A stretch of 56,349 nucleotides of DNA from a virus, in the IMG/VR virus record IMGVR_UViG_3300050821_012381, positions 1 to 56,349 of that record. One strand, written 5' to 3'. A model generated the notes under the pieces. The model saw nothing but the letters and a program-made list of their open reading frames with translations, ran no database searches and was not told where the DNA came from. The position numbers were made by a program, and so were the translations under genes. This document shows, piece by piece, positions 7,893 to 39,635 of this stretch (positions are counted from its first letter, which is position 1; every line of letters starts with the position of its first letter).

Positions 7893-10070
7893 TTACCCTG
7901 TGGAACTCGCGAACATGAGCATTTGCATGTTCTGCGCGAGCGCGGTAACGCCATTTACCTGGGAGAATGCTATCGAAGCCGGCATACCTGAAGTGGCTGC
8001 AGAGTAGAATCCCTGGCCCAATGTAAACTGCTGACTGTTGTTCTGGGCGACCCCGAAGAATCCATTGAAGTTGTTCGAAGCGCTGTTGGCTGAATAGACA
8101 GCCTCAAGCGCATTTGAGTACGACCCATCAGCGCCTGCCGAAGAAGTCGATGATGCGAATGCCATCCAGTAACGACCAGCCGTTACGGTTCGAGTGCTGC
8201 CGATGCTGAAGTGGCGCATGCCTGAGAACAGGGAGTAGCTGCCCTGCGTGCCAGAATGGGTGACTGCTGTGCTGGCAGACGTGCTTCCCAACAGTGACAG
8301 TGTGGATGCATTTCTGGTGTACAGACCTACTGCGAATGTCAGTGAATGAGATCCGCTGCTGTTGTTTGTGTTCGTATTGAAGATCGGCAAAAGCACGCGG
8401 TCATACTGGAATGTCGGTACCAGATTCGGATCCAATAGCAGTGATCCCTGACCCAACTGGCTGATGACAATCGGAAGATCCGCATACGGATTGTAGCCAG
8501 ACTCCGTGGTTCCGGCATACCCGATGCTGATGGTGCTGCCGTTGGTGGAGATCGAAATTCCACCTGTCGCACTCAAGGAACTGGTCTGGGGAACTGAGAA
8601 TAGCGCCGACTGCGCGCCATTGCTGATGGTCAGCGCACCACCGGCTGCGGACATGACTACCGTACCGGAGGTGAATGTGCTGTTGCTGGCCGCAATCGCC
8701 ACTCCGCCACCGCCTCCAGCGGCAGAGGCTGTGATGGTCGAACCGTTGAGACCGAAGGACACACCATTGGAGTTGCTGAAGACGATCGAGCCCAAAGAGC
8801 CGCTGGTGGTGCCGGCGCTGACGCTCAGATTGGCGAAATTCGTGGTGGCGGGCCCCGAAATCTGAATCGTGCCACCGCTGTTACCCACGCTGATGATGCC
8901 GTAGCCGGCGAAAGCGAGATTGGAGAGTGCATATGCACTACTCGAACTCTGGCCGGTGGACTGGCTCTGAATATTGACCGTGGCCGACGCTCCGGCACCC
9001 GAGGCACTCGCGGTGATGGTGCTACCGGCCATGCCGAAACTCACGCCATTGGCGTTGGAGAAGACGACGGTTCCGTTACTGACACTGTTGCCTGCCGCGC
9101 TCAATGCGGCGCCACCTCCGCCTCCAGCAACGCCGGACAGAGCGAGGTTCAGTCCCGCCGTGTTCAGAGTCATGGAGGCGGAGATGTTCGTGCCGGCGAA
9201 GGTCGTGCCTTGCCCTGCGGCCGATGTGCTGTTGTAGCTCGCGACAACAGAGCCAGCGCTGTTGCTGAAAGTAACGCCATTGCTGTTGGCAAATCCGAGT
9301 GTCGAGAAAGTGCTCGAACCTCCGGATGCAGAAAATGCTTGCGCTGATTGGCTGTACGACCCCGTAATAGTCGAGCCGTTCATACCGAAAGCCAGGCCAT
9401 TGGAATTCGAGAAAACTACGTTTCCGTTGCTCTGACTCGAGCCAGCGGCCGAGACTGCTACTCCACTGCCAGCACCACCGGCCGCAGCCGACAGGGCGAG
9501 ATTGACTCCTGCGGTATTGAGCGTCATCGACGCAGAAACGTTAGTACCTGCGAAAGTCGAGCCTTGCCCGACGGCTGAGGTACTGTTGTAACTCGCGACC
9601 ACTGATCCGGCTGAGTTACTGAACGTGACGCCGTTACTATTCGCAAAACCGAGAGTGCTGAACGTGCTGGATCCGCCCGAAGCCGAGAACGCCTGAGCCG
9701 ATTGAGAGTAGGATCCTGTGACGGTGCCGGCATTCGTTCCAAAAGCCAATCCATTGCTGGCACTGAATACGAGCGCAGCAGCTATTGAAGCGGTCACTTG
9801 CGAACTGCCGGACAGCCCGAACGTGACACCATTGGAATTCGCGAACGCCAACGTCCCGGACGTCTGTGTTTGTGTACCGGCCTGGACCGCTGCTATACCT
9901 GCCGCAGGGCCTGGCGCAACAGAGGCAGTGAGAGTGCCGTTGTTTAGGCCAAAAGAAACTCCGTTCGAATTCGAGAAGATAATAGTTCCCGAACTCTGGC
10001 TCGCAGTGCCAGCGCTGAATGCTACGCCCACTCCGCCTACTCCTCCGCCAGGTATGTATGCATTTGGCAT
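7893..10070 (-). CDS. Repeat-rich tail fibre protein, 725 aa
   Basis: About two thirds of this protein is built from a 20-residue repeat of the form FSNSNGVSFGLNGSTITAS, present in about eight variants. A longer unit of about 77 residues occurs twice, with 44 consecutive identical residues encoded by very different codons (see findings). Such repeats are known from fibrous phage adhesins. The last 200 residues are non-repetitive with more aromatic residues and may form the receptor-binding tip. The start is ATG at 10070, just after the stop of the beta-helix spike gene. Confidence 0.75.
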   Translation of the reverse strand: MPNAYIPGGGVGGVGVAFSAGTASQSSGTIIFSNSNGVSFGLNNGTLTASVAPGPAAGIAAVQAGTQTQTSGTLAFANSNGVTFGLSGSSQVTASIAAALVFSASNGLAFGTNAGTVTGSYSQSAQAFSASGGSSTFSTLGFANSNGVTFSNSAGSVVASYNSTSAVGQGSTFAGTNVSASMTLNTAGVNLALSAAAGGAGSGVAVSAAGSSQSNGNVVFSNSNGLAFGMNGSTITGSYSQSAQAFSASGGSSTFSTLGFANSNGVTFSNSAGSVVASYNSTSAAGQGTTFAGTNISASMTLNTAGLNLALSGVAGGGGGAALSAAGNSVSNGTVVFSNANGVSFGMAGSTITASASGAGASATVNIQSQSTGQSSSSAYALSNLAFAGYGIISVGNSGGTIQISGPATTNFANLSVSAGTTSGSLGSIVFSNSNGVSFGLNGSTITASAAGGGGGVAIAASNSTFTSGTVVMSAAGGALTISNGAQSALFSVPQTSSLSATGGISISTNGSTISIGYAGTTESGYNPYADLPIVISQLGQGSLLLDPNLVPTFQYDRVLLPIFNTNTNNSSGSHSLTFAVGLYTRNASTLSLLGSTSASTAVTHSGTQGSYSLFSGMRHFSIGSTRTVTAGRYWMAFASSTSSAGADGSYSNALEAVYSANSASNNFNGFFGVAQNNSQQFTLGQGFYSAATSGMPASIAFSQVNGVTALAQNMQMLMFASSTG
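9231..9362 (-). repeat. Fibre repeat copy A (44 codons)
   Basis: Encodes 44 residues from GSYSQSAQAFS to SVVASYN, identical to copy B at 9585-9716. Of 44 codons 31 differ between the copies, all synonymously. Flanking residues are also similar, giving a repeat of about 77 residues. Confidence 0.9.
9585..9716 (-). repeat. Fibre repeat copy B (44 codons)
   Basis: Partner of copy A at a distance of exactly 118 codons. The protein sequence is the same, while the DNA is recoded at most synonymous positions, including several AGC versus TCN serine switches. Confidence 0.9.
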
Positions 10071-10074
10071 GGGC

Positions 10075-11913
10075 TTACTTCTTAGTGACCCTGACTACCC
10101 AACTACCCGAGGCCAAATCTACAGTGCCAGCGGTAGAATTGAACAATGCCACTGTAACTGTGTTAGCTGAAGAGACATACCCGGTGCACTGGATTCCTTG
10201 CAGATCATAAGGGGCATACACATCGACATGGTCACCCAACGCTGCACCAGTTACGGTCGTTGTCGTGCTCGTAGGTGTTAGCGTCAGCATGCTGGCAGGA
10301 TCGTATGTGAATGTCTTGGTGTAGTGCCACGGACATGGAACGAAGTAGAATCCGTCTACTGTAGTAGCTTCCGCATTGCCGGCTCCGGTCGACACCCGTA
10401 GACGATCCGATCCGCTGTTTCCCATGATGGACAGTAGGTCATTGGTTACATCAAACCAGACCAATCCGAATGTCGTGGATGGGGCATTCAGAGCTGTAAA
10501 TGTTGTAGTGTTGACCTGCAGATTAACAGTTCCAGCACCACTTGCTGATTTACACCGTACACCCAATCTGATAGATCCTGGGAATCCTTGGAAGGGGGGC
10601 ATCGGGAAACTGATCAGAATCGTACTTGCGGCTGAAGAGCTTATGACGCTCTTGGTCGTGGAATAGGATGTAGAGTCAATAGTGAACGACTGAGGGCCAA
10701 TATCGCCCAGCCGGTCTACTCCTACAAATCCATTCAGCGCATTCTGAGAATGGTGAAAACTCTGGTTCAGATCTGACTGAATCGCGCTGTTTACTGGATA
10801 TTCGAATCGGCACGCACGACCGCTGGCGTTATTAACAAGACCCAAGACGTTTGTGCCGCTTTGGGTGTTTTTCTCGAATTTCCCCGTCGTCGAAACGCCC
10901 TGGGTATCGATATACGCAGTGCTCGCGTCGATAGCACTGATACTATTATCGGATACATCGTAGTCAGCGAATGCGGTGCTCGCCGCGGTGTCTCCAAACT
11001 TGAATATTTTGCTAAACCCGTTCGCGCTGTTGAATCCGTGTATCGTGTTTGTTCGAAACTGGGCAGTCAGCCCGTTCTTCATGTCGAAGACCGGGAACGG
11101 ACCCGTGACAGCGGCTCCGATCTCGAATTTTGAATTAACCACGCGCCATATAAACAGGTTGCTGTCTGACGCAGCGGTCATCAATGCGCCATTGTTAGTC
11201 TCCATGTGAATCTGGTCGAACGTTAGGTTGTTCACGTTCTGGTTGTTGTCCGAATTGAATCGGGAATCGATATTTATAACAGTCGGGACCGTTGCGCCGG
11301 ATGCATTCACATTTCGGAACATGGTTGTCTGAATTTTAGAGTCCCAAAGCTGTCTTACGCGAAGACCTTGACCGACCACATTGTGGAATCCGCAATCGCG
11401 CATGGTCAGCAAGGAAACTCCCTGCATGGCCACCAGTGAATCTGAGCACGTGAAGCTTCCCCCGTGAAAAATCACGCCTTGAATGAGAATTCCATTAATA
11501 GTTGGGCCTGCGTTATTGAGCCCGTTCCAATTGAACAGGTTGGCTGCATTCTGGCTCAACTTGAATTGAGGAGTACTAGTCGTCCAATCCTCTCCGCCGC
11601 CAATCGCGAACATGTTGAATCGCTGCGTGACTGAGTGGGCGCCTGTAGTCAAATAAATGCCAGGATACAGAAGCCCGTACCCAACGCGCTGACAGACATT
11701 TATCCACGTGTTGATAGCAGCAGTGTCAAGCGTGACGCCGTCCCCGGCTGCGCCATAACGGCGCAGATCATATGGCTCATATTGCAGAGTCAGATTCTGA
11801 GAGGTGAGCCCAGCTGCTGTTTCTGCAGAAGTGACACTAGAGAACGGATTTGCAGGCGAACTCGGTCCGCCCCCACTTGTGTCAGGTACATACGCATTAA
11901 CGCACGCTGACAT
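10075..11913 (-). CDS. Tail spike with pectate-lyase-like beta-helix
   Basis: A 612-residue protein. Residues about 47-95 carry the pectate-lyase-3 signature seen at the start of many tail spikes (DLRRYGAAGDGVTLDTAAI, then YPGIYLTTG). A long stretch rich in Asn, Gly and Val follows, as expected for right-handed parallel beta-helix coils (GILIQGVIFHGG, LTMRDCGFHNV). The C-terminal 150 residues are beta-rich and may serve trimerisation or binding. Such spikes bind or cleave surface polysaccharide. It is the first tail gene after the 214-residue protein; the fibre gene follows after 4 bases. Confidence 0.8.
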   Translation of the reverse strand: MSACVNAYVPDTSGGGPSSPANPFSSVTSAETAAGLTSQNLTLQYEPYDLRRYGAAGDGVTLDTAAINTWINVCQRVGYGLLYPGIYLTTGAHSVTQRFNMFAIGGGEDWTTSTPQFKLSQNAANLFNWNGLNNAGPTINGILIQGVIFHGGSFTCSDSLVAMQGVSLLTMRDCGFHNVVGQGLRVRQLWDSKIQTTMFRNVNASGATVPTVINIDSRFNSDNNQNVNNLTFDQIHMETNNGALMTAASDSNLFIWRVVNSKFEIGAAVTGPFPVFDMKNGLTAQFRTNTIHGFNSANGFSKIFKFGDTAASTAFADYDVSDNSISAIDASTAYIDTQGVSTTGKFEKNTQSGTNVLGLVNNASGRACRFEYPVNSAIQSDLNQSFHHSQNALNGFVGVDRLGDIGPQSFTIDSTSYSTTKSVISSSAASTILISFPMPPFQGFPGSIRLGVRCKSASGAGTVNLQVNTTTFTALNAPSTTFGLVWFDVTNDLLSIMGNSGSDRLRVSTGAGNAEATTVDGFYFVPCPWHYTKTFTYDPASMLTLTPTSTTTTVTGAALGDHVDVYAPYDLQGIQCTGYVSSANTVTVALFNSTAGTVDLASGSWVVRVTKK

Positions 11914-11916
11914 GTC

Positions 11917-12561
11917 TTAACGACTCGCAACGTTGTACTGGATCACTTTCATGGCAACTGAACCTGTACCGCTATTGAGTAGCACACGCACAAATGTTGG
12001 TGTAAACAGGAAATTAGACTGCACAGAGCCGGTGGCATTCACTGCGTTGGTGTCGTTCGTGTTGATCCACTGCATGGCGGAAGGCGAAACACGATTCGTA
12101 GTCCCGTCCGGATCGTCATATGTCGATTGCAGTGTGTAGTTTACGGTTCCAGTCACGTCACACTGAATACCGACCGGGGGACTCGCCCACTCATCCAGTC
12201 GAACCCAGGACGTGGTCCCAATTCCACTGGTTCCGACGGTCACCGTTCCGGTGGCTGCCCCTGAGATAACGATCGATGACACCTTTGAATATGACAGCAC
12301 GGAGGTCGCACTTGTGCCGTTGCCTGTCACCGTTTCGGTCAGCAGAGAGCCGGTCGACGTGGCGCCAGTGATTGTAAACGTGTGCGTCGTATCGGTCGTC
12401 GTGATCGTGATGAACTGGTGGTTGCCAATGACGGCGACGCCATTAGAGACCAATGAGCCATTGAGTGTCAGCGGACCTGCCGCGCCCGGCGTCTGGGACA
12501 GCGCGATGTTGTTCGCACTCTGCGCGGTCAGCGGTCCAATGGTCGCCGTGATGGGTCTCAT
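11917..12561 (-). CDS. Putative virion structural protein, 214 aa
   Basis: Starts at ATG 12561, preceded by GAGGACGAAAAGAG as ribosome-binding site. It is dominated by Thr, Ser, Gly and Val beta strands (FITITTTDTTHTFTITG, VSSIVISGAATGTVTVG), then a more globular end. The pattern resembles small head-tail or adaptor-type structural proteins of podoviruses, but no family is certain. It is the first gene after a terminator-like hairpin. Confidence 0.6.
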   Translation of the reverse strand: MRPITATIGPLTAQSANNIALSQTPGAAGPLTLNGSLVSNGVAVIGNHQFITITTTDTTHTFTITGATSTGSLLTETVTGNGTSATSVLSYSKVSSIVISGAATGTVTVGTSGIGTTSWVRLDEWASPPVGIQCDVTGTVNYTLQSTYDDPDGTTNRVSPSAMQWINTNDTNAVNATGSVQSNFLFTPTFVRVLLNSGTGSVAMKVIQYNVASR

Positions 12562-12583
12562 CTCTTTTCGTCCTCGGTCAAAC

Positions 12584-12608
12584 AAAAACGGGAGCGCTAG
12601 GCCCCCGT
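12584..12608 (-). terminator. Rho-independent terminator-like hairpin
   Basis: Read leftward: stem ACGGGGGC, loop CTAGC, stem GCTCCCGT with one G-T pair, followed directly by a run of five T. It lies between the 110-residue gene and the 214-residue gene, so it may split the late block into head and tail transcripts. Confidence 0.65.
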
Positions 12609-12652
12609 TCAAGTGCCCCTATGGGCTACGAACTAACGCCTGCGACAACGTC

Positions 12653-13604: not shown

Positions 13605-14519
13605 TTACGACGTCGGGAAGGAGCCGTAAATGCTGCGCCAGTTGAAATAGTTGCACGAGTATCTTTCGTACGACTTCACCAGAAGGTTGTCGGTAACGAA
13701 ATCGACCTGCATGTCGCTCTCGTACGGAATGCGCTCCATGTAGGCCAATCCCGGGATGTTGGTCAGCCCGAACCACGCAAATTGCGAGGTCAGGAAGTCC
13801 ATCGTCATGTAGCCCTCGGGAACGCCGCCGGCCGTCGACAGGATCGCATTGACGTCGTTGTCCGCCGTGCCGGGGCGCAACTCGGTCTTGGTCAGGCGAA
13901 TCGCGGTCGGCTCCAACTGCGGTGGGATGATCAGTTTTCGGAAGCGCGCGAACATCTTCAGTCCCGCCTGGTCGCGGAAGTTCGTGCGCACCGCCACCAT
14001 CGCGTTGAGCAATGTGGCTTCGTTCAGGTCCACCTGCGTGGTGGGCGTGTTCGCGATGGTATTGCCGTCAATTGGATGGGTCGTGGCGCACAAGGCCACG
14101 CCGTCGCCGCCGACCGAGGCGTTGTAGGTCGTCGCGGTGTTCAGGACATTCGCGGCGTAGATCTCTTTGAACTGGTGGAATGACTCCATCAGCCCCAGGT
14201 TCGACGGGTGGAACTGGGTCTTGTACAGGTTGTCGTCGATCGCCTTGCGCGTGATCGCGTAGCCCAGGCCGATCTCGATGTGCTCCTGGTTGTAGACGTA
14301 GCGCTCGCCTGCGTTGTTGTCGAAGCCGGTCTGGCCGCCTTCAGTCTTGAGCTGCGCCAGCCCCAGGTACCGCATCTCAGCGGTTCGCTCCAAGGCCAAC
14401 TTCGAGTTGAACTTGGTGAAGACCTTGTCGTACTGAGAGGGTATCTGCTCGTACTTCCCGGTGATCCCGCGAAGTCCCGGCAGGAGCAGATCTTTGATAG
14501 CTGAAAGATTGACGGCCAT
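13605..14519 (-). CDS. Major capsid protein (Mu gpT-like)
   Basis: A 304-residue protein with the size and pattern of the Mu gpT / HK97-fold capsid family: an N-terminal helix region, YLGLAQLKTEGGQ, a central ARFRKLIIPPQLEPTAIRL strand, and the end YERYSCNYFNWRSIYGSF. It forms the shell of the icosahedral head. It lies between a 208-residue and a 195-residue structural gene and downstream of the portal and scaffold-like genes, the usual order. No cleavage site or protease gene was recognised. Confidence 0.75.
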   Translation of the reverse strand: MAVNLSAIKDLLLPGLRGITGKYEQIPSQYDKVFTKFNSKLALERTAEMRYLGLAQLKTEGGQTGFDNNAGERYVYNQEHIEIGLGYAITRKAIDDNLYKTQFHPSNLGLMESFHQFKEIYAANVLNTATTYNASVGGDGVALCATTHPIDGNTIANTPTTQVDLNEATLLNAMVAVRTNFRDQAGLKMFARFRKLIIPPQLEPTAIRLTKTELRPGTADNDVNAILSTAGGVPEGYMTMDFLTSQFAWFGLTNIPGLAYMERIPYESDMQVDFVTDNLLVKSYERYSCNYFNWRSIYGSFPTS

Positions 14520-19139: not shown

Positions 19140-19357
19140 ACGGGATCTCCTGACAATTTTTGGCCGTCCTCAAACACTGCCAATTCGGCCGGAATACGTG
19201 TCGAAAGCGACAGTTTCAGTGCGAACTCGTGGGCCTGCCGCAGTTCATCCAGCTCGAAATTCATCACTGGTTCCCATTGGCTGACACACCAGCGCTCCAC
19301 ACGTAAATTCGCGGTTGAACTCGTGGAGTCCGGCCATCGGATCAACCTGACTCTCAC
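19136..19357 (-). CDS. Small hypothetical protein, 73 aa
   Basis: GTG at 19357 overlaps the portal TGA as GTGA. A Met at 19264 is an alternative start that leaves only the helical end (MNFELDELRQAHEFALKLS). Function unknown. It is coupled between the portal and the Gly/Lys-rich gene. Confidence 0.5.
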   Translation of the reverse strand: MRVRLIRWPDSTSSTANLRVERWCVSQWEPVMNFELDELRQAHEFALKLSLSTRIPAELAVFEDGQKLSGDPV

Positions 19358-21741
19358 TGGATGCCTCGGTCCACATCCTGAATGATCTCGTGAGCCTTCT
19401 TGCCCACATTGCCCACGTCGATCGGCTTGCCGGTGACGGGGTGGGTCGGCGCGCGGATCACGTCCGATGCCAACTTGATCGCCGCCTCGCGCTCACGGGC
19501 GACCCGATCTTGGTCCCGATTCTGATCCTCGGTCTGCGCCTCGCGTTCGTGCACCGCCGCCTCGCGGGCCCGAGTATGCGCGTCGATGAGTTTGGCTGTC
19601 GCCTCAGCTTTGTCCACCGGCGTGTCGACCTGCTGAGAGCCGCCCAGGCCGGTCGCCTCCTGCTTCGGCACGTGGGCGCCGACCGCGATCTTGTTCTGAG
19701 TTTCGGCCTCGGCCGCTTTCGCTTCGATGAGGTCCGCCTGCGCGCGCATCGCATCGGCGTCAGCCTGCTTACCCTTGTTCGCCATCTCCGCTTGCATCTG
19801 CAGTAGCTGCGGGGGTGGGTTCGCGCGGGCGGCGGGGGGCACGAAGAACTCGTCGGGATTCGACCAACCCAACGCATTGAGCGCTGCGGTATCGCACTTG
19901 ATTGGATCGTACAGGTTCGGGCTCGCCTGCTGCAGTTGCTTCAGCCCCATGACTTTCATCAGTCGCTGGCCACTCGAAGAAGTGTTTGGATCCGCCTGCG
20001 GAACCAGATCACAGTTGTTGAGCGCGGCAAGAAATTTGGCTTCGTCCCATGGGGTCTTGGACTTGCACCCGCGCTGCCAGAATGTCTTCGGGTTCTCTTT
20101 GAACTCACGCTTGAGCAACTGGAATTCTTCGGCCTGGGCGGCATGCATGCGTTTGTGCACCGCGTTCATCACTTTGACGGCCTGATCGATCATGGCCATC
20201 GTCGTGCCCACCGGCACGTCCGCCCGGCCCTCGCCCACCTGCACTTCCGCAGTGCCGCCGATGCGCCGGCCAGTCTCGGCCATGTCCTGCACGAGGGCCA
20301 TCAGCGCCGGCATTTGCTGGGTGCTGTACGGCAGCGGCATGATCGCATCCCGGATCGGGACGCCGTTGGTCTTCACTGGCGCGCCGCCGCCGGGCGGGAC
20401 GCGAAAAATGTTTGTGTTCTGTCGCCCGGCGTTATCCTGCATCAGGAAGCCGGGGAAATTGGCATACATGCCGTTGTCCAACATCTCGCGCCAGGCGGCC
20501 GTGATTGCGTTGGTAGAGTTGCCCAGAATGTGCAGCAATCCGATACCGTAGAACCCCAGGCCCGGCACGAAGGGAAACTTCACGAAGCGTTGGCGCGCGA
20601 CAGGCAATTTCTCGGTCTCTTCGTCGAACCTACGAACTACGGAGAGCGCCTCGCGCGAGGACTTGTCGATAGTCACCACGTAGGGGATCGCCAGGCCCGT
20701 CACCTTGCCGTTGTGCTTGTGCTCAAAGCCCGCGATGTCGAGCTCGCAGCAGCACTCATAAATTTCGCGCTCGCGATCAAGCGGCCGGCGCATGGTGTCA
20801 TCGGATAGTCCCTGCTGCGCCTTCTCTTCCTGTTGCAGCGCATCCGGGGTAGGCATCACCGCATCACCGAGCGGGATATCTCGATACACACCGAGGATTT
20901 GCATCCGCTTCAAGGTCGACGGCCGCATATAGACGCGATGAGTGACGCGCTGAGCATTGGCCAGATCGGTGGCCGACTGATTGACGATCAGATCATCCGC
21001 GTCGACCGACTCCGAGACGGGGCGGTTGCGCAGCGGGCACGTGTAGACCTTTTTGAATCCGTCACCGCCAAACCCCGTCATGAACAGCATGCGATCAGTG
21101 TCGGGGTAATACTCGGTTGCTACCGCGGTCAGGTAGTGATTGAAGTCCTGTTCGAGCGCGTTGGCCATCTGGTCGAGTGGCACAGTGGGCGATGTGGAGT
21201 CGTTACGGATCTTCACCGGCCCATCAGTCGGCAGCAGCTCTGACCGCGCGTTCGCCTGGAAGCGCAGCACCGCCTCGAGCAGCAGGGGGTGGCGGACCTT
21301 GCTCATGCCCTCCACTGGCGCGCCATCCGAGCCGCCGGCCACGTTGGGGAGCTCGATCTTCAGCCCCAGGAGTTTCACTCCGAGCGCGCGATCCTCGATC
21401 CACTCCTGTCGGGACTGCAGGTCATCGGCAATGCCCTGCAGGAGCTCCTCGGTGATCCGTGACAACTCGTCGGAGCCGATCTTCTCGGCGAGATTGCTGA
21501 ACCACTCGGTCGGCCCGTCATTGGCCGGGTTCACATTCCCGAGCGGCTGGCCATCCAGTGAGACCGTGATCGCCCCGTCGCCGTGGGTGATCCTGAGAAT
21601 ATTGCCGCTGTCGTCTATATCGGGACTATCGGCTTGGTCGTCAGACACATCGACGACAACTTTGGCCGCCTGGGGCAGCGCCGGGTCCGGCTCGCCCACG
21701 ATGCGCAGATTGGCGTTGTTCATGCCGGCGAGGCCGCTCAT
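19354..21741 (-). CDS. Portal protein (podovirus type)
   Basis: A 795-residue protein. ATG at 21741 overlaps the upstream TGA as ATGA, so longer readings are rejected. An acidic N-terminal part is followed by the portal core: FQANARSELLPTDGPVKI, YCECC-type region (EIYECCCELDIAGFEH), FKFPFVPGLGFYGIGLLHI and AAWREMLDNGMYANFPGF. The C-terminal 200 residues are a Lys/Glu/Ala helix with QAQADL-like repeats, as in other portals with a long barrel. It forms the dodecameric DNA channel at the head vertex and works with the terminase encoded just beyond. Confidence 0.85.
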   Translation of the reverse strand: MSGLAGMNNANLRIVGEPDPALPQAAKVVVDVSDDQADSPDIDDSGNILRITHGDGAITVSLDGQPLGNVNPANDGPTEWFSNLAEKIGSDELSRITEELLQGIADDLQSRQEWIEDRALGVKLLGLKIELPNVAGGSDGAPVEGMSKVRHPLLLEAVLRFQANARSELLPTDGPVKIRNDSTSPTVPLDQMANALEQDFNHYLTAVATEYYPDTDRMLFMTGFGGDGFKKVYTCPLRNRPVSESVDADDLIVNQSATDLANAQRVTHRVYMRPSTLKRMQILGVYRDIPLGDAVMPTPDALQQEEKAQQGLSDDTMRRPLDREREIYECCCELDIAGFEHKHNGKVTGLAIPYVVTIDKSSREALSVVRRFDEETEKLPVARQRFVKFPFVPGLGFYGIGLLHILGNSTNAITAAWREMLDNGMYANFPGFLMQDNAGRQNTNIFRVPPGGGAPVKTNGVPIRDAIMPLPYSTQQMPALMALVQDMAETGRRIGGTAEVQVGEGRADVPVGTTMAMIDQAVKVMNAVHKRMHAAQAEEFQLLKREFKENPKTFWQRGCKSKTPWDEAKFLAALNNCDLVPQADPNTSSSGQRLMKVMGLKQLQQASPNLYDPIKCDTAALNALGWSNPDEFFVPPAARANPPPQLLQMQAEMANKGKQADADAMRAQADLIEAKAAEAETQNKIAVGAHVPKQEATGLGGSQQVDTPVDKAEATAKLIDAHTRAREAAVHEREAQTEDQNRDQDRVAREREAAIKLASDVIRAPTHPVTGKPIDVGNVGKKAHEIIQDVDRGIQ

Positions 21742-21953
21742 GGCTTGACCAGACCGCTCGGGCTGCTCGACATCAATGCACAGTCGACCATTTGCCGCAG
21801 GCACTCGCGAATTGAGTCGTATTCCGCCTGGGTGATCTCGCGATCCGTTGCGAACTCGCCGGGGCTCGTGACCCGCGAGATTTCGACGCGGCCAGCAGGC
21901 AAATCGAGGACGGCGCGGGCCGTGCCGTAGACCTCGCGCACGTACTTGCTCAT
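21738..21953 (-). CDS. Small hypothetical protein upstream of portal, 71 aa
   Basis: ATG at 21953 overlaps the upstream TGA as ATGA, and the end overlaps the portal ATG. It has a short beta part (GTARAVLDLPAGRVEISR) and a helical part (ITQAEYDSIRECLRQM). Function unknown. Confidence 0.6.
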   Translation of the reverse strand: MSKYVREVYGTARAVLDLPAGRVEISRVTSPGEFATDREITQAEYDSIRECLRQMVDCALMSSSPSGLVKP

Positions 21954-22222
21954 GCGATCCTCGCCTGAGGCGCCACACTCGCCATGCCGGGAATCTGTCG
22001 GCCGAACTGAGACACGAACAACTCCATGCCCTTCATCGCCGCGGCATCATCTGACTCCGCCGCGATTGGATAGACACGCACGTATGCGTGGGGGAACTCG
22101 CCGGTCACTGTCACCTGAAACACATACGGCCGCTGTGTCTTGGAGACCAGTTTCACGGTCGCCTTGCAGCGGGGGGTGGCGTTCTCGAGCGTGAGGATCG
22201 TCACAGGTGCCTGAATAGCCAA
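21950..22222 (-). CDS. First gene of the leftward late block, 90 aa
   Basis: Starts with TTG at 22222, preceded by GGCGAGAAC. Beta-rich N-terminal half (VTILTLENATPRCKATVKLVS) and a helical end (AAAMKGMELFVSQFG). Function unknown. It opens the late block and points away from the terminase gene, 53 bases off. Confidence 0.55.
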   Translation of the reverse strand: MAIQAPVTILTLENATPRCKATVKLVSKTQRPYVFQVTVTGEFPHAYVRVYPIAAESDDAAAMKGMELFVSQFGRQIPGMASVAPQARIA

Positions 22223-22275: not shown

Positions 22276-23892
22276 ATGCTCGAACTGCCGCCGAATTTTG
22301 ACCGCGAAGCCCAGTTACTGGATCTGGACCGGGCCGACTGCGAGGAGTCGCTCTACACCTTCCTCAAGTCCGGCTGGCGATTCATCGATCCAGCTCCCTG
22401 GAAGGACGGCTGGGCTGTCGATGCGATCTGCGAGCATCTGCAGGCCGTCGTCGACGGGCAGATCAAGAAGCTGCTCATCAACTGCCCACCGCGGATCGGG
22501 AAGTCCAACACGGTCTCGGTCGCCCTGCCCGCCTGGACTTGGGCGCAGCCCAACCCCACGCCCACCTCAGGTCCGGGCGTTCCGTTCCTGTACGGCTCCT
22601 ATGCCGACAAGTTGAGTCTGCGTGACTCCGTCAAATGCCGCCGGTTGATCGAGTCTCCCTGGTATCAGGCCCGCTGGGGCAATCGCTTCAAACTCACCAT
22701 CGATCAAAACACCAAGTCGCGCTTCGCGAACGACCGAGGCGGTGAGCGGCTCATCACCAGTATCGGCGCAGGCGTCACCGGCGAGGGCGGCAATATCATC
22801 GTGGCAGACGATCCCAACGCCGCGAACGATATCTCGAGCGATGCCGCGCTCGAATCGACGATTGAGTGGTGGACGACCGCCATGCCAACTCGACTCAACG
22901 ATATCGAGAACGGCGCCTTCATCATCATCCAGCAGCGCCTGGCCGAAAATGACCTGACCGGCCACATTCTCGAGCACGAGGCCGACGGCTGGACACATTT
23001 GTGCCTGCCGGGCCGCTATGAACCCGAGCGCTCCTATCACACCGTCATCGGCTGGAAGGATCCGCGCACCGAGCCCGGCGAACTTCTGTGGCCCGAGCGG
23101 TTCAGCGACTCGGCCCTGAAACGACTCGAAGTGGTCATGGGCCCGTACACCTTCGCCGGCCAGATCCAGCAGCGTCCGGAGCCCAAGGGCGGCGGTATCA
23201 TCAAGCGCGACTGGTGGAAACTTTGGGAGCACGACTCCTACCCACCGATGGACTTCGTGCTGGCGACGCTAGACACGGCGTTCACCGAAGATGAGATGAA
23301 CGACCCGAGCGGCATGATCATCTGGGGAATCTTCTCCGGTGACGTCAAGGCCGCCACCACGCGCATCATCTCTCAGGATGGGGCTCCCCGCCGGATGGAT
23401 TCGACCTATTCGGAATTCGCACCGCACGTCATGTGCATGTATGCGTGGACTGCACGACTGGAACTTCACGAGCTGGTCGAGAAGGTCGCGCAAACGTGTA
23501 TCAAGCTCAAAGTCGACACGCTGTTGATTGAGAACAAAGCCTCCGGCATCAGCGTGTCCCAGGAAATCCGCCGTCTCTACTGGCGCGAGCGCTTCGGCGT
23601 CGAGTTGTTCGATCCGAAGAGTCAGGACAAAGTCGCGCGACTCTACAGTGTCCAACACCTCTTCGCCGAAGGCATCATCTATGGACCCGACCGGCCGTGG
23701 ATGGATGCCGTCATCACGCAGGTCGGCGCCTTCCCGCGCGGGCGCCATGATGAGTTTGTAGACCTTACAAGTATGGGATTGAGAAAGCTCAGGGATATGG
23801 GATTGTTAGTTCGACAACCCGAGAGAGAAGCCGATAACGAAGCTGCAAAAATCTACCCGCGAGGTCAGGACGCACCATTGTATCCCGTTTGA
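22276..23892 (+). CDS. Terminase large subunit
   Basis: A 538-residue packaging motor. Residues 67-77 hold a Walker A-like motif (LINCPPRIGKS), residues about 173-181 the Walker B (GGNIIVADDP), and LATLDTAF near 330 begins the RNase-H-like nuclease domain. IIQQRLAENDLTGHI is the coupling segment seen in this terminase family. The ATG follows directly on the TAA of a seven-codon in-frame mini-ORF (22252-22275), so no longer start is possible. The last 45 codons are visibly richer in A and T than the rest. Confidence 0.9.
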   Translation: MLELPPNFDREAQLLDLDRADCEESLYTFLKSGWRFIDPAPWKDGWAVDAICEHLQAVVDGQIKKLLINCPPRIGKSNTVSVALPAWTWAQPNPTPTSGPGVPFLYGSYADKLSLRDSVKCRRLIESPWYQARWGNRFKLTIDQNTKSRFANDRGGERLITSIGAGVTGEGGNIIVADDPNAANDISSDAALESTIEWWTTAMPTRLNDIENGAFIIIQQRLAENDLTGHILEHEADGWTHLCLPGRYEPERSYHTVIGWKDPRTEPGELLWPERFSDSALKRLEVVMGPYTFAGQIQQRPEPKGGGIIKRDWWKLWEHDSYPPMDFVLATLDTAFTEDEMNDPSGMIIWGIFSGDVKAATTRIISQDGAPRRMDSTYSEFAPHVMCMYAWTARLELHELVEKVAQTCIKLKVDTLLIENKASGISVSQEIRRLYWRERFGVELFDPKSQDKVARLYSVQHLFAEGIIYGPDRPWMDAVITQVGAFPRGRHDEFVDLTSMGLRKLRDMGLLVRQPEREADNEAAKIYPRGQDAPLYPV

Positions 23893-35097: not shown

Positions 35098-35375
35098 TGG
35101 ATACCCTGGAATTCCCAGGCGGCCGGATCAAATTGCTGCCCAATGACTGCATCAGCATCAGCTTTGAAGGATGGTCTATCACAGGCAGAATATTCACGGT
35201 CATGCACTCACTCCAACGTGGTCAAAATCAGATGAATGATGAACGGAGGCGTCTCGCCGCCTTGGCCATGCAAGGCTTCATCGGCACACACAATGAAATT
35301 GCATGGACATATGCGGGGATAGCAAAAGCGGCCACCGAGTGTGCCGACGCGTTGCTGAAGGAGTTGGCCAAGTGA
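35097..35375 (+). CDS. Hypothetical protein, 92 aa
   Basis: GTG at 35097 overlaps the csrA TAG as TAGTG. The second half, from MNDERRRLAALAMQGF (35232) to ADALLKELAK, matches a very common small phage protein, which suggests that ATG 35232 may be a second start or that two pieces are fused. The first 45 residues are beta-like. Confidence 0.5.
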   Translation: MDTLEFPGGRIKLLPNDCISISFEGWSITGRIFTVMHSLQRGQNQMNDERRRLAALAMQGFIGTHNEIAWTYAGIAKAATECADALLKELAK

Positions 35376-36283
35376 ATGCGCGCCTACTCAACCTGACTCC
35401 TGATCAGTATCGTAGCGGACCTATCAATACACCATGGCTTTCGCAATCCTACGCACACATTTTGATTTCCAAATCGCCTCTACATGCTTGGGCAGCGCAT
35501 CCTTTGCTGGGTGGTGTATCCAGACCCAGCACCGACGCATTGACTGACGGTACGATAATTCACAAATTCATTCTGGAGAAAGGCGCTGACGTTGCAATTG
35601 CACCAGCAGAGTGGCCGGACGCTAAGGGGAAAATGCTGCCTGCGGTTGAGTGGCGTACCAACTCCGCCAAGGAATGGAAGGCGAATGCGCTAGCGGAGGG
35701 CAAGCTCCCATTATTACAGCATGAAGCGGAAGCTTTTATTACTGCCGCTGAAGCGATCAGTACCCGGTTCCATAGGTTCGACATCCCTCTGGATGTTGCA
35801 GAGAAAGAAGTCTCCATCACTTGGGATGAGCAAGGTAAATATGGACCCGTGCATTGCTGCGCAATGCTCGACTTGCTGGTCTTGGAAAATGGAGATATTT
35901 TCGATTTCAAATCCACGCGTTCAGCGACTCTTAAGTCATGCCGAAGGGCTATGACTGACTATGGTTACTATCTGCAAGATGTTGTGTACCGTCGCGCTGT
36001 CAACGCGCTGAAGCCGGAACTCGAAGGCCGCGGAAAAATGTGGTTTGTGTTCGCTGAACTGGAGCCGCCATACGCTGTAGCAAAGCCGCGCGTAACCAGC
36101 AATGCCATGCGCGAGATGGGTGAACGAGATTGGCGGCGAGCGGTACTGACGTGGGAGGAATGTTTGCGTACTGGCAAATGGCCAGGGCCGGACGAAGATG
36201 GAACTGGCGTGCTTGAGCCAATGCCGTATGCGCTGACGGATGCGATGGAGCGGGAGACGGAGGAGGAAAGCGGTGAACGGTAA
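35372..36283 (+). CDS. PD-(D/E)XK exonuclease (RecE/Exo VIII-like)
   Basis: A 303-residue protein. GTG at 35372 overlaps the upstream TGA as GTGA. Nuclease features are DGTIIHKFIL near residue 60, then MLDLLVLENGDIFDFKST at about 163-181, which gives the D...D-x-K active site, and MTDYGYYLQDVVYRRAV with the Q-x-x-x-Y motif of RecB/lambda-exonuclease-like enzymes. It probably makes 3' single strands for recombination. The RecA-like ATPase gene is its partner downstream. Confidence 0.75.
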   Translation: MNARLLNLTPDQYRSGPINTPWLSQSYAHILISKSPLHAWAAHPLLGGVSRPSTDALTDGTIIHKFILEKGADVAIAPAEWPDAKGKMLPAVEWRTNSAKEWKANALAEGKLPLLQHEAEAFITAAEAISTRFHRFDIPLDVAEKEVSITWDEQGKYGPVHCCAMLDLLVLENGDIFDFKSTRSATLKSCRRAMTDYGYYLQDVVYRRAVNALKPELEGRGKMWFVFAELEPPYAVAKPRVTSNAMREMGERDWRRAVLTWEECLRTGKWPGPDEDGTGVLEPMPYALTDAMERETEEESGER

Positions 36284-36488
36284 AACCATCGGCCCACATT
36301 GGATCTCGATGGGAGAGCCGCCGCCTAAGCGCGGATTTTATTGGCTTCTGAGCGATCAGCGGTTTCGCTTACTTGCGCATGTCGATCATCATGGAAAATG
36401 GCATGGTGTTGATCAAAATGGGTACTTGTTTGAAGTGACGGATCTATATACGCATTACACGCCAATCTGGGAGCCGTCACTATCATGA
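36273..36488 (+). CDS. Small protein between exonuclease and ATPase, 71 aa
   Basis: GTG at 36273 follows GGAGGAGGAAAGC, a strong ribosome-binding site, and overlaps the exonuclease end. Rich in Trp, Tyr and His (RGFYWLLSDQRFRLLAHVDHH). Not recognised; may assist the recombination pair. Confidence 0.55.
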   Translation: MNGKTIGPHWISMGEPPPKRGFYWLLSDQRFRLLAHVDHHGKWHGVDQNGYLFEVTDLYTHYTPIWEPSLS

Positions 36489-37474
36489 CCATCGACTTCA
36501 AACCCGCCGTCCGCGAGTCCATCGGATTGATCATCGGCCTAGCTGCCGGCACGGGGGGTGGGAAAACAAAAACCGCCATGGAACTCGCGACCGGGATGTC
36601 AGATGGCAAGCCATTTGCCGTCATCGACACTGAGCGGCGTCGAGCTCTCCACTACGCGCCGCCGCCGGGCAGGAAAGCCGATGGCAAGGTCACTTACGAT
36701 TTTCAACACTTGGAGCTCAATCCTCCATTTCGTCCAAAATCATACGCTGAAGCAATCATGGCTGCAGACGAGGCTGGATTCCCCGTTATCATCGTAGATT
36801 CTGCCTCGCATGAGTGGGCCGGTGAAGGCGGCATCATCGAGTGGCAGGAGGAAGAAAATCATCGGATGGCCGGCGGCGATGAGAATGCTTCCGACTACTG
36901 GAAGCGCAAAGAAGCCACAAAAATGGCCGCTTGGATCAAACCCAAGACCAACCATAAGAAGATGGTTACACGCATGTTGCAATTGCGTGCGCATCTTATC
37001 CTTTGCTTTCGCGCCGAACCGAAAGTTGAAATGGTGAAAGACCCAGATACCGGGAAAACAGTCATCGTTCCCAAGAAGACCCGAACAGGGCTCGATGGCT
37101 GGGTGCCAATCTGTGAGAAAAATCTTCCGTTTGAACTGACGGCAAGCTTTCTATTCACCGAGGATTCGCCTGGCGTGCCGAAGCCAATCAAACTTCAGGA
37201 GCAGCACAGGCCGTTTTTCCCATTGGATAAACCAGTCACGCGTGAAGCCGGAAGGCTGCTAGCTGAATGGGCGGCTGGCGGCGCTCCAAAGTCGATCGAC
37301 ATTGCTGCCATGACCGCTCAGTACACCGACTGTGAGACCCAGGCAGAGTTCGATCAGCTCGAGGTTGAACGGGCGAAGGCATGGAAATCGATCCCGAAGG
37401 GAGAAGCCAAGGAACAACTGGCGGCAGCGAGTGCCGCTGCTAAGGCGCGACTTGCATCTAGTAATTCTGTGTGA
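36485..37474 (+). CDS. RecA-like phage ATPase (AAA_24/Sak4-like)
   Basis: A 329-residue protein with Walker A GTGGGKT (22-28), Walker B FPVIIVDSAS (about 98-107), and ERRRALHYAPP. The RecA-like core resembles the phage nucleotide-binding proteins classed near Sak4 recombinases. The tail is Ala/Lys-rich and helical. With the upstream exonuclease it would form a recombination system for repair or genome circularisation. ATG overlaps the upstream TGA. Confidence 0.7.
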   Translation: MTIDFKPAVRESIGLIIGLAAGTGGGKTKTAMELATGMSDGKPFAVIDTERRRALHYAPPPGRKADGKVTYDFQHLELNPPFRPKSYAEAIMAADEAGFPVIIVDSASHEWAGEGGIIEWQEEENHRMAGGDENASDYWKRKEATKMAAWIKPKTNHKKMVTRMLQLRAHLILCFRAEPKVEMVKDPDTGKTVIVPKKTRTGLDGWVPICEKNLPFELTASFLFTEDSPGVPKPIKLQEQHRPFFPLDKPVTREAGRLLAEWAAGGAPKSIDIAAMTAQYTDCETQAEFDQLEVERAKAWKSIPKGEAKEQLAAASAAAKARLASSNSV

Positions 37475-37507
37475 TACTCTGCGCACATACTGAAAACGGA
37501 GATTCGT

Positions 37508-37732
37508 ATGCCGACTCGAAAAATAGATCCGCCAAGTCTGACGCCCGATGAACTTGCGGCCATCCACTGGTTCCTAGATCACCAGTCGTTTTCGGACTAC
37601 CTCGAATCGGTGCCGCCTCACTTGGGCAAGGACGCCTGCACTGATAAGGCGTACGAAATTCGTGATGCGCTCGGCAAGTTGCAGTCGACTCTGCTGCCAT
37701 CACGGTCCGGTGACTGGATGTACCGGTCATGA
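37508..37732 (+). CDS. Small hypothetical protein, 74 aa
   Basis: ATG at 37508 is preceded by GGAGATTCGT. One helix-rich domain (LTPDELAAIHWFLDHQSFS). The end overlaps the next gene as ATGA. Not recognised. Confidence 0.5.
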   Translation: MPTRKIDPPSLTPDELAAIHWFLDHQSFSDYLESVPPHLGKDACTDKAYEIRDALGKLQSTLLPSRSGDWMYRS

Positions 37733-38025
37733 GCGCCCAAGGTACCTGCCCCGTCTGCAATGGCACCAAGCGAGTGCCGTATACCGGCGAGTACGCCCAC
37801 ATCACGGCGGGTTACGACAAAACTACAGGCACGATTCCATGCGGAAACTGCGGCGGCCAGTACATGAGCATGTCGGCAACCGGTCTGGTCCCGATGCGCC
37901 CAGACGGCACCCCGTGCACGCATGCCTATCAGGAAACCGGCCCCGTCGATCAGCGCCGTCGCGGTTGGCACGAGTACACGTGTACGGGTTGCGGTGATCA
38001 TTATTCCATTGATTCGGGAGATTGA
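37729..38025 (+). CDS. Zinc-ribbon protein, 98 aa
   Basis: Contains CPVCNGTKRVPY, CGNCGG and CTGCGDHY, so three Cys pairs in the style of DnaJ-type zinc ribbons. No other domain is present. Probably a small metal-binding adaptor for nucleic acid or protein. Confidence 0.6.
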   Translation: MSAQGTCPVCNGTKRVPYTGEYAHITAGYDKTTGTIPCGNCGGQYMSMSATGLVPMRPDGTPCTHAYQETGPVDQRRRGWHEYTCTGCGDHYSIDSGD

Positions 38026-38029
38026 GCGA

Positions 38030-38266
38030 ATGAAAAGATCCATGAAAGTCGCTCTGTTCCAGGACCGGTCCGGCCACGTATATCCGGGCGGAGAGAATAT
38101 AGATAAGTACGTGAAGCAGGACATTCGCATCACCGACTTCGTGGACGTCCAGTTTACCGAGATCGAAGGTGAGCACTTACAGGACGCTATTCGCCGCGCC
38201 CGTCAGGCGGATATCGAGTATCACCAGAAGCAACTCGAAGCTCTGCTTCGCGAGGGCGGTTTATGA
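38030..38266 (+). CDS. Small hypothetical protein, 78 aa
   Basis: ATG at 38030 starts MKRSMKVALFQDRSG. Mixed beta start and a long C-terminal helix (LQDAIRRARQADIEYHQKQ). The end overlaps the next ATG. Not recognised. Confidence 0.5.
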   Translation: MKRSMKVALFQDRSGHVYPGGENIDKYVKQDIRITDFVDVQFTEIEGEHLQDAIRRARQADIEYHQKQLEALLREGGL

Positions 38267-38454
38267 TCCACTGGTGGCAAAGTCTCTCCTTCAGCGCAGC
38301 TTTCCTGTGGCTGTTTCTAGCCATCGGAACCCTCGTTCTTCTCTCAGTCCTGATGCGTGCAGCTGGGCAGCGCCGTCCGGATGTGCTGGATCCCCCGCAC
38401 TGGAGTACACGCCGGGACTCACCCGAAGCTGCTGGAAAGGTGCGTCGTGGCTGA
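38263..38454 (+). CDS. Single-pass membrane protein, 63 aa
   Basis: One strong membrane helix at residues 10-32 (SAAFLWLFLAIGTLVLLSVL) and a basic, Pro-rich cytoplasmic-type tail. Function unknown. Confidence 0.55.
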   Translation: MIHWWQSLSFSAAFLWLFLAIGTLVLLSVLMRAAGQRRPDVLDPPHWSTRRDSPEAAGKVRRG

Positions 38455-38639
38455 GAGCCGTACAGCTTATCACCGTGAGTTTCGTCGGCGCACCGCACCT
38501 CGGCGCCGTCATCTCCAGAATCTGCGCTTGGCCTGTATGCGCTCATGCCAGTGGATTCTCGATAGTCTTTATGCTGATGGCGTGTTGATGACCTCATACA
38601 GTATCAAAGCGTCTCACGCACTGAATTTACGGCGTTCGC

Positions 38640-38660
38640 GTGCAGAGCAACACTCTGCAC
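38640..38660 (+). promoter_or_regulatory. Perfect hairpin abutting the integrase start codon
   Basis: GTGCAGAG, five bases CAACA, CTCTGCAC: an 8-bp perfect inverted repeat that ends directly before the ATG at 38661. In mRNA it would cover the ribosome-binding region; in DNA it could be an operator or recombinase site. Confidence 0.6.
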
Positions 38661-39635
38661 ATGGACACCAACACAACACCGAGCACGGCGGTAACCGTCG
38701 CAGAAATCCTCTGGCGCTACGAGCGAGACTGTCTTCAGGATCTCGCACCGCGAACGCAGATCGACTACGGCCGGCATGTGGTCACCCTGAGGCAGACCTT
38801 CGGACACCGAATCGTCACGGAACTCGAGCCGAAGGACTTCGGGCCCTTCCTGGCGGTGAGGAAAGGCAAGGTCCAGCGGGTCAAGCAACTCGCGGTGCTG
38901 TCTGCCGCGTTCACCCAGGCGGTGAGCTTCTGGTACTGGATCCCGCGCAACGTCCTCAAGGATGTCGCGCGACCGAAGTTCAAGCCGCGGGATCGGCTGG
39001 TCGAGCAGCAGGAGTTCGACGCGGTACGAGCGCTCGCGCCCTATCGCGTGAAGTTGGCGATGGATCTGGCCGTCATGACCGGCCAGCGCCAGGGCGACAT
39101 CCTCAATTTCCGCTGGTCGGACATCAAAGACTGTCCGGAGCCCATTGTCGATCCGATCACCGGCGAGGAAGTGACGTCCGAGCTTCACGTCTACCAGTCG
39201 AAAACCGGGAAGCGCTTGGCGATCGGCATCTCGAAGGATCTCGAGAACACGCTCGACCAGTGCTGGAAGCTGCCAAACCGGGGCGAGTTTGTTCTGTCGT
39301 CCCGCTTCTCACAGCAATTCACAGGCGAAGGCTTTCGCGCGATGTGGCAGCGGGCACTGAGGAAGTACGCCTCCCGGGGCTTCAAGAGATTTACATTTCA
39401 CGATCTGCGCGCGTTGGCTGCGACTCGATGCCCTACTCCGGAAATCGCCATGCGGTTGCTAGGGCATACCAATATCTCAATGACGCTCCGGATTTATCGG
39501 CGCGGAGTAGAGAGGGTTCAGGCGCTGGGATTGCAGCCCCAGCAGAAGCGAGTCTCGCATGAGAACCCCATTTCAATGGATAGCCGGATTGCTCCTCCTC
39601 GGAGCGACGCTGTGGCTGTCTCACTGCAAGTTTGA
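38661..39635 (+). CDS. int: Tyrosine recombinase / phage integrase
   Basis: A 324-residue protein with an N-terminal SAM-like domain (TQIDYGRHVVTLRQTF) and a complete catalytic set: Arg in TGQRQGD (about 143), Lys in QSKTGKR (about 181), FHDLRAL with His and Arg (about 247 and 250), LLGHTNI (His about 272) and RIYRRG (Tyr about 282). It would integrate and excise the genome at att sites. ATG 38661 is preferred; the GTG at 38640 lies in the hairpin. The last 77 bases overlap the next small gene. Confidence 0.9.
   Translation: MDTNTTPSTAVTVAEILWRYERDCLQDLAPRTQIDYGRHVVTLRQTFGHRIVTELEPKDFGPFLAVRKGKVQRVKQLAVLSAAFTQAVSFWYWIPRNVLKDVARPKFKPRDRLVEQQEFDAVRALAPYRVKLAMDLAVMTGQRQGDILNFRWSDIKDCPEPIVDPITGEEVTSELHVYQSKTGKRLAIGISKDLENTLDQCWKLPNRGEFVLSSRFSQQFTGEGFRAMWQRALRKYASRGFKRFTFHDLRALAATRCPTPEIAMRLLGHTNISMTLRIYRRGVERVQALGLQPQQKRVSHENPISMDSRIAPPRSDAVAVSLQV

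Follow-up and report, generated by a model that had tools for sequence, protein, structure and literature searches.

We find that two repeat units of a fibre-like phage gene, which share an identical stretch of protein although most of its codons differ, are ordinary, well-conserved repeat modules, held constant by strong purifying selection and shuffled among phages within a mosaic fibre-like protein. The gene lies in a 56,349-nt stretch of viral DNA (IMG/VR record IMGVR_UViG_3300050821_012381, positions 1 to 56,349), which we call the window. Very probably, the units are old copies of a fibre module and do not stem from a recent duplication in the window phage. Purifying selection would have kept the module's amino-acid sequence nearly constant, while its synonymous sites would have changed until they were saturated. 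The copies would have parted before the window phage diverged from the lineages of two related viral contigs, L019 and L020, or would have met by homologous exchange among related fibre genes (phage mosaicism). The constraint may be structural, acting on the beta elements of a fibre shaft that is probably trimeric, and phage recombination functions may carry out the exchange.

The fibre-like gene sits within a block of tailed-phage structural genes, the location of a phage tail fibre (Table 1). Its protein is composed of many short FSNSNGVSFG...TITAS elements; it has no family in Pfam or NCBIfam and weak matches only in PHROG. Modular fibre-like proteins with the same short NSNGVxFG...TITAS elements occur in uncultured tailed phages (IMG/VR loci L002-L029 and L034-L052), several of which have a related C-terminal domain. 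A tblastn search for homologues in cultured phages gave no match among 50,697 phage records, and none was confirmed in GTDB genomes. The C-terminal domain is predicted, with low confidence, to be all-beta (mean pLDDT 56). At E 0.001 its model resembles no fold in the PDB; it matches some predicted proteins of uncultured phages (BFVD A0A6J5KL09, E 2.5e-10); the domain is possibly the receptor-binding tip. The structure model of the repeat region is unusable (mean pLDDT 38.5). The same gene is found in a second assembly (L001, IMGVR_UViG_3300021406_000407) with 2 differences over 2178 nt, which opposes an assembly or sequencing error as the source of the recoding. In the window, the tail-spike-like gene separates the fibre-like gene from gene 11917-12612; in L019, the homologue of gene 11917-12612 is directly followed by the fibre gene.

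Table 1. Features of the window, with positions numbered from its first nucleotide.
Feature	Position	Strand	Remarks
Fibre-like gene	7893-10070	minus	725 aa; rich in S/G/N/A/T
C-terminal domain of fibre-like gene	7896-8525	minus	common to relatives' fibres at 22-44% identity
Unit copy 2	9111-9419	minus	residues 218-320; an older copy or one acquired separately
49-residue identical run, copy 2	9219-9365	minus	contains 9231-9362
Unit copy 1	9465-9773	minus	residues 100-202; position and DNA orthologous to the L019 single unit and the L020 first unit
49-residue identical run, copy 1	9573-9719	minus	contains 9585-9716
Tail-spike-like gene	10075-11913		phrog_19988
Capsid	13605-14519		phrog_371
Portal	19354-21978		phrog_1216
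Terminase	22276-23892		phrog_38
RecE/exonuclease VIII-like gene	35303-36283	plus	phrog_412, E 2.8e-39; PDDEXK-like DUF3799
AAA_24 ATPase, adjoining the RecE-like gene	36485-37474	plus	27.5 bits vs cutoff 27; phrog_1366
Tyrosine-integrase-like gene	38640-39635		read by eye

A first-pass annotation of the window had drawn attention to two 132-nt stretches (9231-9362 and 9585-9716). Both translate on the minus strand to GSYSQSAQAFSASGGSSTFSTLGFANSNGVTFSNSAGSVVASYN, the gene being read on that strand; frame 1 of the plus strand has stops in both stretches. The 44 identical residues, and the 31 of 44 codons that differ by synonymous changes only, are confirmed (37 nucleotide differences, 72% DNA identity), with corrections to the strand and to the length of the run, which extends by 5 further residues to 49, with 35 of 49 codons different. 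Three of the 13 serines in the 44-residue stretch switch between AGY and TCN codons. This protein match is not due to chance. The homologous units that contain it are about 103 residues long, with 89 of 103 residues identical between the copies, and the match stops past the unit ends. Within the unit, the changes that flank the identical run had been noted as conservative only; most are (V/I, V/L, S/T, A/G), but A/N, T/M, G/S and A/V changes are also present.

We compared this recoding with random synonymous choice by permuting codons among the synonymous positions of the fibre-like gene 5000 times. The 49-residue run has 35 codon differences, compared to 33.2 +/- 3.0 after permutation (P 0.35), and the whole unit has 63, compared to 59.4 +/- 4.0 (P 0.22). 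The longest exact DNA tract between the copies is 8 nt, compared to 10.7 +/- 3.1 nt (P 0.30). Codon differences match the random expectation and, consequently, the silent sites are saturated but not over-diverged. The three serine switches are fewer than the 7.4 expected at random (P 0.02), indicating that the copies still show a trace of common descent. Switching of serine codon boxes (TCN/AGY) at conserved serines is described as a known phenomenon in passages of PMC7954308 that cite Averof 2000 and Rogozin 2016; the situation here is the same, with protein-conserved serines encoded from the other codon box, whereas the low number of switches gives no sign of a special process.

The first-pass annotation had explained the recoding by two forces, strong selection on the protein repeat and a pressure against DNA identity, for example one that stops recombination from deleting fibre units. 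The first is well supported by the conservation of the module in many phages, together with silent sites near saturation. The second we consider very unlikely. There is no excess of codon differences for it to account for, and the same recoding is found between genomes. The unit is present in other viral contigs, with one full copy in L019 and two in L020. Over 81 compared residues, copy 1 and the single L019 unit have 98% amino-acid identity with 49% of codons different; copy 1 and the first L020 copy have 95% identity with 55% of codons different; and L019 and L020 have 98% identity with 58% of codons different. The window pair, with a fraction of 0.70 of codons different, exceeds these orthologues (0.49-0.58), as a deeper separation predicts. 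Other relatives also combine a conserved protein with recoded DNA. L022 and L024, from different phages, agree over 82 consecutive residues, 38 of which are differently encoded, and the modules of L022 and L026 have 39 of 40 residues identical (97.5%), 62% of codons different and serine boxes switched at 8 of 11 positions. Pairs in different genomes are beyond the reach of intragenic recombination, and therefore the pattern needs just protein constraint and time. Because modules of other phages, including a single-copy unit, are recoded in the same way, no special force that keeps DNA copies different is required.

Across the family, the median ratio of observed to expected codon difference is 0.85 for identical peptides of at least 20 aa between loci (n = 180), compared to 0.66 for identical peptides within genes (87 pairs). 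Within-gene pairs are thus the less recoded, which is opposite to what a pressure against DNA identity would produce. We also tested whether protein identity within genes exceeds that between genomes at matched codon difference, and found no consistent surplus. A keyword search of the literature found no paper that deals directly with recoded repeats of phage fibres. When repeat genes encode identical protein with recoded DNA, a comparison with random synonymous choice and with orthologues should precede any appeal to special pressure.

The strength of the protein constraint is typical of conserved structural genes in the same phages. The YN00 dN/dS is 0.065 for the unit pair and 0.038 for copy 1 and L019, to be set beside the NG86 values of the yardstick genes (capsid protein, 0.06-0.08 against three relatives and 0.115 against MW202675; gene 11917-12612, 0.06-0.12), in a comparison that mixes the two methods with dS near saturation, the NG86 dS of the unit pair being undefined because its sites are saturated. 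The earlier argument for a pressure on DNA also took for granted that drift after an ordinary duplication would change residues, a premise that does not hold when selection is purifying, as seen in the major capsid protein (91% amino-acid identity to L019, dN/dS 0.073), which keeps a 59-residue identical run, with 10 codons different, at a dS of about 1. Similarly, gene 11917-12612 and its L020 counterpart agree over 25 consecutive residues, 15 of them encoded by different codons. In other phages' copies, too, conservation is highest in the block that is identical in the unit pair, with a column identity of 0.90 inside and 0.72 outside.

We now turn to the origin of the two copies. Copy 1 has a DNA identity of 83% to L019 and 78% to the first L020 copy, compared to 71% to copy 2. 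It has 29 codons in common with L019 and not with copy 2, versus 8 for the reverse (p 0.0008), and 48 nucleotides versus 12 (p 3e-6). Serine-box switches, which are a slower clock, give the same order: 0 of 20 between copy 1 and L019 and 2 of 20 between copy 1 and the first L020 copy, versus 5 of 20 between copies 1 and 2 and 6 of 21 between copy 2 and L019. In trees, copy 1 groups with L019 and copy 2 is placed elsewhere, with moderate support (75-78). Because the DNA of copy 1 is nearer to that of other phages' copies than to copy 2, the two copies are best read as having parted before the window phage diverged from L019 and L020, or as having arrived separately, and the proposed pressure against DNA identity loses further ground. 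This relationship, and a dN/dS like that of conserved neighbouring genes, are the two outcomes that the first-pass annotation had named as refuting its reading. Copy 2 may be an old duplicate or may have been brought in by exchange; on either reading it parted from copy 1 before L019 and L020 diverged from the window phage. At the site of copy 2, L019 has a different N-terminal half. The single unit of L021 joins a copy-1-like upstream flank to a copy-2-like second half, as expected if recombination exchanges or fuses units.

Within its family the window pair stands at the extreme, which is why the first-pass annotation chose it: it has the highest codon difference of any module pair with 100% protein identity over 40 aa. 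A 49-residue run free of all 14 differences is improbable under even scatter (P 0.0007), and uneven constraint accounts for it only in part. In addition, both window copies have a Gly in STLGFANSN (GGT at 9648-9650 and GGA at 9294-9296, minus strand) that is absent from all 38 other copies, which mostly have Asn. The shared Gly is not simply explained by the tree of the copies; it could reflect substitution in parallel, conversion over a short tract or units that co-evolve, alternatives that one site does not separate. We give very little credence to a general form of co-evolution, whereby units in one fibre change together in protein, residue by residue and with dissimilar DNA, since they must match when assembled.

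The same two features, the unusual Gly and a protein identity that is the family's highest at such codon difference, would also be expected from a recent duplication within the genome, followed by very fast synonymous change in one copy, for example through a targeted mutagenic process. Even so, this is the least probable account and is extremely unlikely, given that the DNA of copy 1 is significantly nearer to the L019 and L020 copies, that slow serine-box changes set copy 2 apart from copy 1, L019 and the first L020 copy alike, and that the GC3 of both copies (0.62 and 0.65) matches the gene (0.63). Purely synonymous change across 49 codons would moreover require selection anyway. The GC3 values also rule out foreign codon usage in one copy.

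The proposed pressure against DNA identity supposes that recombination can delete fibre units, and unit loss is indeed seen in the family. The fibre genes of L009 (7400-8400) and L011 (5000-5240) are otherwise identical and differ by a clean, in-frame deletion of a 708-bp unit, with L011 matching L009 for 1844 nt ahead of the junction and in all compared sequence beyond. The junction lies in register inside a 44-residue identical repeat with 83% DNA identity, and has a 5-bp exact overlap, which assembly collapse would hardly produce. The sequences thus point to unit loss by recombination between diverged repeats, and the divergence of the repeats (83% identity) failed to prevent it. According to De Paepe et al. 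(2014, PMC3945230), phage annealases tolerate a divergence as high as about 17%, in agreement with this event. That study describes mosaic exchange, and fibre modules are likewise common to otherwise different genes here; it concerns E. coli phages, whereas the recombination functions of the window phage are known from profiles alone. Recoding is neither a necessary nor a secure barrier to recombination.

The window phage itself appears, from its RecE-like gene, to carry its own recombination functions, which would give a pressure against DNA identity something to act against. The neighbouring AAA_24 ATPase, which like the exonuclease was identified by profile, is possibly a Sak4-like annealase, though its match is weak. 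With the integrase-like gene in the same region (35303-39635), the phage is probably temperate.

If DNA identity were selected against, exact repeats should be scarce. The window gene has no exact 15-nt repeat, but its synonymous shuffles average only 0.9, which gives low power alone. In 27 family genes, some of them close mutual relatives and those with low expectations giving little power, 15 exceed at least 99% of their own synonymous shuffles in exact 15-nt repeats, and a deficit was not detectable in any. The excess can be large (418 observed versus 6 shuffled in L022; 367 versus 9 in L009). Repeats within one gene can be nearly identical in DNA (31 aa with 0 codons different in L009; 48 aa with 1 in L008), which again opposes a pressure against identity.

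A related explanation leaves codons unselected and proposes survivorship, in which near-identical units are quickly lost by recombination and diverged units persist. The observed unit loss is consistent with it, as is the near absence of exact repeats from the window gene and its nearest relatives (L019, L020 and L021), when other family genes have many. We still regard survivorship as unlikely, because it is superfluous for a window pair whose codons are at equilibrium, and because many family genes have kept near-identical repeats. Long-standing purifying selection on the protein, with saturated silent sites, is sufficient for this pair.

The relatives' fibres share a 40-aa FSASGGSSTF-TL-FANSNGVTFSNS module in 1-5 copies. 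A query with the 40-residue module had no match among the 50,697 phage records. Across different uncultured phages (L022, L024, L025, L026 and others), the 40-residue module SQSNQAFSASGGSSTFQTLNFANSNGVTFSNSGGSVVASY is nearly fixed while its DNA is heavily recoded, which points to a structural element under tight constraint whose structure would merit determination.
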